A DNA stretch of 32,776 bases from Candidatus Methylomirabilota bacterium (lineage in GTDB: Bacteria > Methylomirabilota > Methylomirabilia > Rokubacteriales > CSP1-6): NCBI GenBank assembly GCA_036001065.1, contig DASYUQ010000173.1:1-32776 (forward strand), given 5' to 3'. The notes beneath the pieces are model-generated. The model ran no database searches. It saw only the letters and a program-made list of their open reading frames with translations, and was not told the DNA's origin. Shown piece after piece: positions 11,239 to 19,156 of this stretch (its first letter is position 1; each line of letters starts with the position of its first letter). Made by a program: the position numbers and the translations under genes.

Positions 11239-11364
11239 CGGACTCCTCCTTCCACGGTGTGGACGCAAGGCGACTTTGGTACGTTGATGCCGTTCACGTC
11301 GCGCCCGCGCAACCCTTTCCGGGGGAAGGTTTCGGAGGGGGCCGTCGAGGCCCCCTCCGATGAC
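11239..11364. other. Remnant of the IS110 element's upstream end, with a perfect hairpin
   Basis: Non-coding stretch between the transposase start and the small IS630-type element. At 11332-11360 is a perfect 12-bp stem with a 5-nt loop (GTCGA), and just left of it (about 11312-11330) a second, bulged stem CCTTTCC/GGAAGG. In IS110-group elements the bridge RNA is encoded upstream of the transposase, so these stems could be remains of it; that link is inference. No U-run follows the hairpin on either strand, which argues against an ordinary intrinsic terminator. Confidence 0.4.
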
Positions 11365-11454
11365 CTAGTGCCGTTCCAACTTGTTGATACTAAATCTGTC
11401 CACGATCGACGTACACGGTGCCTTCCTAGGCGCGAATAGTTGGAACGGCACTAG
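11365..11454. mobile_element. Small IS630-type non-autonomous element (MITE-like)
   Basis: A 90-bp element with perfect 17-bp terminal inverted repeats, CTAGTGCCGTTCCAACT at 11365-11381 and its exact complement at 11438-11454. Both ends lie in CTAG; IS630/Tc1-mariner-type elements are known to insert at CTAG and duplicate the TA, which fits. The 56-bp core has no reading frame and is A+T-richer than its surroundings. The right end supplies the TAG stop of the adjoining minus-strand exported protein gene. Confidence 0.72.
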
Positions 11455-17457: not shown

Positions 17458-18330
17458 CTACCCCGTCGCGAAGCGCACCACGGCGGCGACGCCCGCGACG
17501 ATCAGCCCCGCCGCGACGGCGATCCGCCAGGTGACCCGCTCGAGGTCGCGCAGGAAGACCGCGGCGAGCGCGACCGCGAAGATCGACTGGGCGTTGATCA
17601 GCGGGGAGACGACCGACACGTCGCCCAGGGCCAGCGCGCGCCACATCGTCATGTAGGCCAGGCCCTCCGACAGCCCCGACAGGGCCAGGAAGCCCAGCCC
17701 GATCCATTGGAGCCGCATGCGGCCGCTCCCGGCCTGCAGGCCGGCGAAGAGCCACATCACCGCCAGGGACGTCAGCGTGGCGGCGGCGGCGGCGAGCAGC
17801 GGGTCCGAGTACTCGCGAAACCCGTAGCGGCTGATGTTGTCGCGGAAGGCGAAGCCCAGGGCCGCCAGCAACGGGAAGACCAGGTCGCGCCGCCGCCAGG
17901 CCCGGTCCGTCAGGCCCCGCTGCGAGAGCAGGACGCCGCCCGTCACGATGCAGGCGGCGCCCACCAGGAGCATCCACGACGGCCGCTCGCCCAGGAAGAG
18001 AATGGCCATGGCGACGGAGAAGAGCGGCGCCGTGGCCACCAGCGGCGCCGCGCGCGACACGCCGATGCGGTCCACGCCGACGAAGAGCGCGAGCCGCGCC
18101 AGCCCCGGCGCCACCAGCCCCGCGATCAGAAACGGCAGGATCGTCCCGGTCATCAACAAGGAGAGCTCGGTGGTGAGGGCGGCCAGGAGCCAGACGAGGC
18201 CGGTGGTGAAGGTGACGGAGACGAGCGCGGCGGTGAGCGGCGTCGCGTACTGGAGCCCGCGCTTGAGTAGCACCCCGGCGATCCCGAACGCGAACGCGGC
18301 CAGCAGCGCCAGCAGCGCGGGCCAGGTCAC
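17458..18330 (-). CDS. EamA-family (DMT superfamily) permease
   Basis: Ten-helix drug/metabolite transporter, 290 aa from GTG 18330, cytoplasmic membrane. Two EamA halves are visible: residues about 5-135 (ending FSVAMAILFLGERPSWMLLVG, with the typical FLGERP motif) and about 150-288 (ending SPLINAQSIFAVALAAVFLR). Probably exports or imports a small metabolite; substrate cannot be given. No ribosome site is seen before the GTG, because an IS630-type element begins 14 bp upstream; the natural 5' end or leader may have been replaced. Confidence 0.88.
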   Translation of the reverse strand: MTWPALLALLAAFAFGIAGVLLKRGLQYATPLTAALVSVTFTTGLVWLLAALTTELSLLMTGTILPFLIAGLVAPGLARLALFVGVDRIGVSRAAPLVATAPLFSVAMAILFLGERPSWMLLVGAACIVTGGVLLSQRGLTDRAWRRRDLVFPLLAALGFAFRDNISRYGFREYSDPLLAAAAATLTSLAVMWLFAGLQAGSGRMRLQWIGLGFLALSGLSEGLAYMTMWRALALGDVSVVSPLINAQSIFAVALAAVFLRDLERVTWRIAVAAGLIVAGVAAVVRFATG

Positions 18331-18343
18331 GAGCGCCGCGCCG

Positions 18344-18500
18344 CTAGTGTCCCGTCCTCGAAGTCATGTGGAGCCCAGCCTCACCGGGGCGGACGCGCGC
18401 CGTGTGGTCCCGCGATCCCTGCCGCGCGTGCCGCGTCGGCCCCGCCGGCAGCGGCGCGAGCGCGGCGATCGTTAACATGACGTCCCAGACGGAACACTAG
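18344..18500. mobile_element. Second IS630-type non-autonomous element (MITE-like)
   Basis: 157 bp bounded by CTAG on both sides. The left end CTAGTGTCCCGTC and the complement of the right end CTAGTGTTCCGTC begin imperfect 26-bp inverted repeats (21 of 26 positions match, including a shared GTCATGT at the inner side). It shares the outer CTAGTG with the element at 11365. The core of about 100 bp is G+C-rich and has no evident gene. It fills the space between the kinase-like/BON gene and the EamA gene. Confidence 0.65.
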
Positions 18501-19006
18501 ACGCGCGCGAAGGTGGGCGGCGCGACGACGGTGATCTCGTCGGTCACGACGGCGACGCCGGGGGTCGCGCCCAGGAGCTTCACCACGGTGTCCCGCAGCG
18601 CCGGGGACTCCACCCCGCCGCTGACCGTGAGCTGGCCGCCGGTCACGGCGATGGAGAGCCGGAGGTGCCGCGTGGACGGCTCCATGACCAGCCGGGCCCG
18701 GGCCTGGGCGGCCAGGCTCAGGTCGCGCGCCTGGGCCAGGCTCCGCTCGGTCGGCTGCACCGAGGCGCTCTGGAGCGCCTCGCGCATGAGCCGGGCGCCC
18801 TCGGCCACGCTCAGGCGCTCGGTGTTGAGGACGAGGTCGTAGAGCAGCGGGTCGTTCCAGTCCACGTGGTAGAGGAACTTCATGCGCTCCGCGGCCTTCA
18901 TGATGATCTCCCGGTCGGCGAACGCGTAGCCCAGCGCGCGCGCCAGCTCGCGCCCGATCTCGTCCCCCTGGCTGCCGGTCGTCTCGGAAATGGCCACGAT
19001 GCTCAT
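18497..19006 (-). CDS. Shortened cytidylate-kinase-like protein with C-terminal BON-like domain
   Basis: 169 aa from ATG 19006 (GGGAGGTG upstream). Residues 1-40 match the start of the cytidylate-kinase-like family (SIVAISETTGSQGDEIGREL, then FADREIIMKAAE); residues 41-80 match its last helices (HVDWNDPLLYDLVLNTERLS). The central roughly 100 residues with the CMP- and lid-regions are absent, and the P-loop is degenerate (TGSQGDE, no Lys). Residues about 112-162 look like a BON domain (RLSIAVTGGQLTVSGGV, then VVKLLGATPGVAVVTDEI). Catalysis is unlikely. The TAG stop at 18497-18499 lies in the end of the IS630-type element, so the C-terminus may be truncated or altered. Confidence 0.78.
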   Translation of the reverse strand: MSIVAISETTGSQGDEIGRELARALGYAFADREIIMKAAERMKFLYHVDWNDPLLYDLVLNTERLSVAEGARLMREALQSASVQPTERSLAQARDLSLAAQARARLVMEPSTRHLRLSIAVTGGQLTVSGGVESPALRDTVVKLLGATPGVAVVTDEITVVAPPTFARV

Positions 19007-19156
19007 AGCGCACCTCCCTGCCCATCCTCGGGGCGCGGAGCACAGGACGATGGCGGAACGAAGGATGCTGTCCAGAAACCCGCTGCGGAGCATGCTCCAC
19101 TCCCCGGGGGCCGGACGATTTGTCGGGAGAACGCTAGCGCCGCCGCCGGCGCCCTG

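Follow-up and report, generated by a model that had tools for sequence, protein, structure and literature searches.

A 157-bp CTAG-bounded element between BON-domain and EamA genes of a Candidatus Methylomirabilota bacterium is very probably a shortened IS630-type MITE

In the stretch of DNA analysed here (the window; positions 1 to 32,776 of contig DASYUQ010000173.1), the 157 bp that separate a BON-domain gene from an EamA transporter gene are very probably a non-autonomous IS630-type transposon, a MITE of what we call family B, which has been shortened and which was inserted at a CTAG. The order on the minus strand is histidine kinase, BON-domain gene, element and EamA gene, and the features discussed below are collected in Table 1. 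The element opens with CTAGTGTCCCGTCCTCGAAGTCATGT and closes with ACATGACGTCCCAGACGGAACACTAG, and its 26-base ends are inverted copies of one another with five mismatches and a CTAG at each end. Indeed, the 157 bp at 18344-18500, the CTAGTGT start and the 21/26 inverted ends that a preliminary description had reported are all present in the sequence, while its distance of 14 bp to the EamA GTG is corrected here to 13 bp (18331-18343, with the GTG at 18330). The two ends have no exact 9-base seed in common, which is why the default repeat finder missed them as an inverted pair.

Table 1. Position, strand and basis of the features in and around the element (window coordinates).
Feature	Position	Strand	Basis
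"First element", 90-bp MITE family A, separate from family B	11365..11454	.	Full-length copies, 96-100% identity
EamA transporter gene; its GTG start lies 13 bp from the element	17458..18330	-	Pfam PF00892; 90% identical protein in G001
Shortened copy of (very probable) MITE family B, 157 bp including both CTAG ends	18344..18500	-	13 two-ended genome copies; pairwise alignment to 263-bp C156 copy
Left terminal inverted repeat, 26 bp with CTAG	18344..18369	+	12 genome places at <=3 mismatches
Right terminal inverted repeat, 26 bp with CTAG	18475..18500	-	With next 3 bases, 28/29 to IS630 end
Left CTAG, target site with presumed TA duplication	18344..18347	.	Single CTAG at orthologous G001 place
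Right CTAG, second target copy, contains minus-strand BON TAG stop	18497..18500	.	Sequence, ORF table
BON-domain / cytidylate-kinase-like gene, its end within the element's CTAG	18497..19093	-	Pfam PF04972, PF13189

When the genome to which the window belongs (G000; 4.46 Mb, assembled as 239 contigs) was searched with the whole element, many partners were found, the best at 94-95% identity, and searches with the end sequences returned 12 places for the left end and 21 for the right. The search for other copies, which had been proposed as a check at the outset, thus yielded 13 two-ended copies, the ends being paired in the loci examined. This count omits one pairing in L040, where the joined ends belonged to two different copies, and includes two copies (C71 and C108) that have one flank in common at contig ends and may represent an assembly branch; partial copies are present beyond the 13. 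As expected of an IS630-derived MITE, the element is short and has no transposase gene, complete G000 copies being up to 263 bp long. Twelve copies measure 256-263 bp and the window copy alone 157 bp. The usual form of the family is a long palindrome of about 260 bp, from which the window copy is shortened by internal deletion: in the pairwise alignment with the C156 copy, which together with the C71 and C108 copies is its nearest sequence and from which the deletion sizes are taken, 102 bp are lacking behind the left end, another 4 bp are lacking deeper in the element, and the closing stretch is identical.

Comparison with G001, the only other genome of the same genus in the search, provided empty sites. 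The alignment with a relative lacking the element, also proposed in the preliminary description, showed a single CTAG and no element at the corresponding place in G001. There EamA aligned at about 91% as far as the CTAG, and when the window flanks were joined at one CTAG the EamA side agreed with G001 at 41/44 positions. On the BON side 7/8, 9/12, 11/15 and 14/21 bases agreed, a 21-bp match that is equalled at only 4 of the 3,427 positions of the G001 locus. The homology on this side ends after about 21 bp, the BON gene having been lost from G001, and past the match the same histidine kinase region follows, with 84 bp at 94%. The second empty site is cleaner: in G001 the sequence that forms the left flank of C156 runs through one CTAG directly into the C108 flank (1,500 bp at 94.8% identity, and 44/44 over the CTAG plus 40 bp at the junction), which shows insertion at a single CTAG. 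When L036 was compared with G001, the alignment reached the CTAG and was followed by a different right flank, namely that of the C108 copy. More generally, flanks that are contiguous in G001 sit in G000 on separate contigs beside family B copies (C156, C108, C71 and C133), as the result of either recombination between copies or misassembly.

Two copies, at C3:40845 (G001 C56) and on C226 (G001 C35), are common to G000 and G001 with matching flanks; since some copies are shared in this way and others face an empty site in G001, family B was active both before and after the split of the two genomes. One G001 copy (C35; L101:1500-2873) is interrupted by inserted DNA whose 338-aa ORF resembles an IS110-type transposase, and bacterial MITEs are reported to be sometimes themselves targets of IS elements (PMC10969869). 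The 157 bp are not conserved in all relatives and an empty site exists, so the transposon reading stands, and the original proposal of a mobile element at a CTAG is borne out by the other copies and by the empty sites in G001. A native palindrome of the REP or terminator kind would likewise be intergenic, palindromic and present in many copies, but the empty sites, the discrete CTAG-bounded ends and their match to IS ends make it extremely unlikely that the sequence was resident rather than inserted. A native terminator was rejected on the absence of a T-run and the empty sites in G001.

The ends also connect family B to complete insertion sequences. Ends of the family B type occurred in 16 of the 99 genomes searched, the window's own included, and all 16 belong to one taxonomic family. 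In G037 (C11) the two ends bound 1,145 bp with CTAG, encoding a 352-aa transposase that matched the IS630 model NF033545 of NCBIfam at 248 bits (cut-off 100) as well as Pfam DDE_3. Another genome, G012, has a transposase 90% identical to the G037 protein in a partial element at a contig end. The right end of the window element agrees with the G012 IS end at 28/29 and 32/34 bases, and with that of G037 at 26/29; family B thus has IS630 ends. When named genomes were scanned, the end sequence was found in 14 stretches, among them one of Nitrospira moscoviensis (NZ_CP011801.1; L150:5479-6627), where the ends lie 1,149 bp apart around a 352-aa ORF that, compared by eye, appears to resemble the G037 transposase. 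The window element thus has terminal repeats and a CTAG target in common with the IS630 family (IS630-Tc1-mariner), as represented by the N. moscoviensis and G037 elements, but differs from complete IS630 elements in lacking a transposase gene and in being only 157 bp long. Within G000 we found no transposase like the IS630 partner at E<=1e-20, and none of three NF033545 matches was above the cut-off; one of these is a fragment at a contig start, and another is an ORF that looks IS3/IS481-like. The missing partner is weak counter-evidence, because repeats are often lost from an assembly of 239 contigs.

Most family B copies have CTAG on both sides, and where the sides are unlike they often retain TA, as in the TTAG/CTAG pair of L092, which is what duplication of TA predicts. 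Filled sites have two CTAG and empty sites one, and although duplication of TA and of CTAG are inseparable at a CTAG target, the L092 copy favours TA. IS630 itself, to go by the title of a 1991 paper by Tenzen and Ohtsubo, reportedly prefers the TA in CTAG. IS630-family elements duplicate TA (PMC2170065). We infer cut-and-paste transposition in trans, with TA rather than CTAG as the duplicated unit: an IS630-family transposase from another element would recognise the family B ends, cut the element out and paste it into the TA within a CTAG, duplicating the target. In the present case the target CTAG would have held the BON gene's TAG stop, which would have been kept at the junction, leaving the gene intact.

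The CTAG on both sides would also fit movement by an IS5-type transposase with a 4-bp duplication of CTAG/YTAR, a reading to which we give only a very small chance. Such a MITE is known from Pseudomonas syringae: as described in its report, MITEPsy1 is, like the window element, a non-autonomous CTAG-targeting sequence (100 nt), but it has different ends, probably derives from ISPsy2 (IS5?) and makes a 4-nt duplication, of CTAG or YTAA (PMC3189936). A third repeat family of G000 (family C) occupying TTAA/YTAR sites adds to the case for IS5. Against it, the complete element with matching ends that was classified, in G037, carries an IS630 transposase, and some copies, again as in L092, have unlike side tetramers with TA in common. 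Other bacterial MITEs, such as MITEAba12 (PMC6382973) and those covered in a review (PMC10969869), are reportedly also small and multi-copy, with inverted ends and size variants, in other hosts; the term IS630 is absent from the main text of that review. Overall, family B adds a MITE family to a known kind, that of IS630, and the insertion event itself is ordinary.

Family B is accompanied by other repeats. The preliminary description had considered the ends of the element to be related to those of a first element in the window; this holds as far as CTAG followed by TG, which both have, and the rest of the ends differ. That the two are one family was rejected on this difference, and is also disfavoured by their distribution: family A end matches number 351 in G000 (185 + 166) and 0 in G001, whereas family B occurs in both. 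Full-length family A copies were found at 40 places among the matches listed, at 96-100% identity, which together with the end counts suggests a recent burst of perhaps 170-180 copies. No common partner of families A and B was identified. Some family A end pairs are about 320 bp apart instead of 90 (G000 C5:1-320 and C33:104761-105080), and are possibly longer members or nested inserts. The roughly 60-bp sequence before the first element (11302-11364) matches about 40 places in G001 and looks like a dispersed terminator-like repeat. The third, palindromic repeat (L033, L034 and L005) is about 200 bp long, starts with CCCCGATCCGAAAT, and sits at TTAA/YTAR, also inside family B copies; the ends of contigs C56 and C48 resemble the two halves of a single insertion of it.

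The strand that carries the window element folds at -88.8 kcal/mol (z -4.1), beating all 200 shuffles, and the C156 copy at -175 kcal/mol (z -6.9), with 0/200 shuffles as good; the recurrence of the element through the genome and its fold are far beyond chance. This raises the question of whether the element is instead a resident regulatory RNA, a hairpin or attenuator controlling EamA from a BON-EamA transcript. The folded strand is presumably the transcribed one, the element directly precedes the EamA start, and when 19 copies from six genomes were aligned, 9 of the 80 predicted pairs of the family consensus had changes on both sides. However, the palindrome of a transposon already predicts a hairpin, the flanks of the other copies are unrelated, G001 is without this copy, and the window copy is without most of one internal arm. 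Neither a promoter-like (sigma-70-like) nor a terminator-like (T-run) site was found within 18250-18600. Regulation by a resident hairpin is therefore improbable, and inserted MITE remains our reading of the element.

An effect of the insertion on EamA is another matter. The insertion could have been taken to account for the missing ribosome site of EamA, but the 13 bp before the gene are nearly the same in G001, which has an ATG start and no element, and a Shine-Dalgarno sequence is evident in neither leader; the missing site is therefore not due to the insertion. With the insertion, the BON stop and the EamA start lie about 170 nt apart instead of 13, and the RNA structure is changed as well. 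An effect of the element on EamA expression is possible, and if it exists it would most likely act through the longer BON-EamA spacing and the strong hairpin in the putative joint transcript. For EamA itself, the element is at present of little significance.

The BON gene ends in the element: its stop is the minus-strand TAG at 18499-18497, within the right-hand CTAG. Six BON homologues end 2-10 residues past the aligned part, so the C-terminus looks natural, and the corresponding CTAG of G001 closes a similar short tail (ARI-stop versus ARV-stop, read by eye). The target was duplicated at insertion, and the stop was thus left in place. The family A copy of the window adjoins a TAG stop as well, a 1324-aa ORF ending at 11451, inside the CTAG at 11451-11454. 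We counted likely TAG stops at CTAG by a simple rule. The frame ending at the TAG of the CTAG had to be open over 100 codons or more, or over 50 or more where the locus end truncates it, and its third-position GC had to reach 0.75 and exceed that of the other two frames; a copy whose flank was short or not CTAG was scored as a miss on the side concerned. Such stops were found at 24/36 for family A (L033-L086; Fisher p 0.0004), at 6/13 for family B in G000 (p 0.16, not significant) and at 15/18 for copies outside G000, two complete IS among them (p 0.00003), each compared with 9/38 control CTAG sites, comparisons in which the control is small, the gene test home-made, L153 an orthologue of L042, and selection against within-gene insertions adds to the excess.

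These counts raise the idea that TAG stop codons serve CTAG-targeting MITEs as a safe harbour, a tentative proposal that we lean somewhat against. It holds that CTAG is rare, that gene ends account for a fair part of its occurrences, and that duplication of TA keeps the stop; the families would therefore build up at gene 3' ends and between operon genes with proteins unbroken. In a literature search on MITE or IS630 together with stop codons, no stop-codon preference was stated in the titles or abstract openings, and no paper was found that had both Rokubacteria and miniature inverted-repeat. If the proposal is true, safe-harbour insertion adds hairpins to many transcripts, and the suggested rule, that a CTAG stop is targeted and the stop kept, would explain how repeats can multiply while costing the host little. 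In any case, a little-studied bacterial group now has an IS630-type MITE family that is defined and for which a likely parent IS and empty sites were found.
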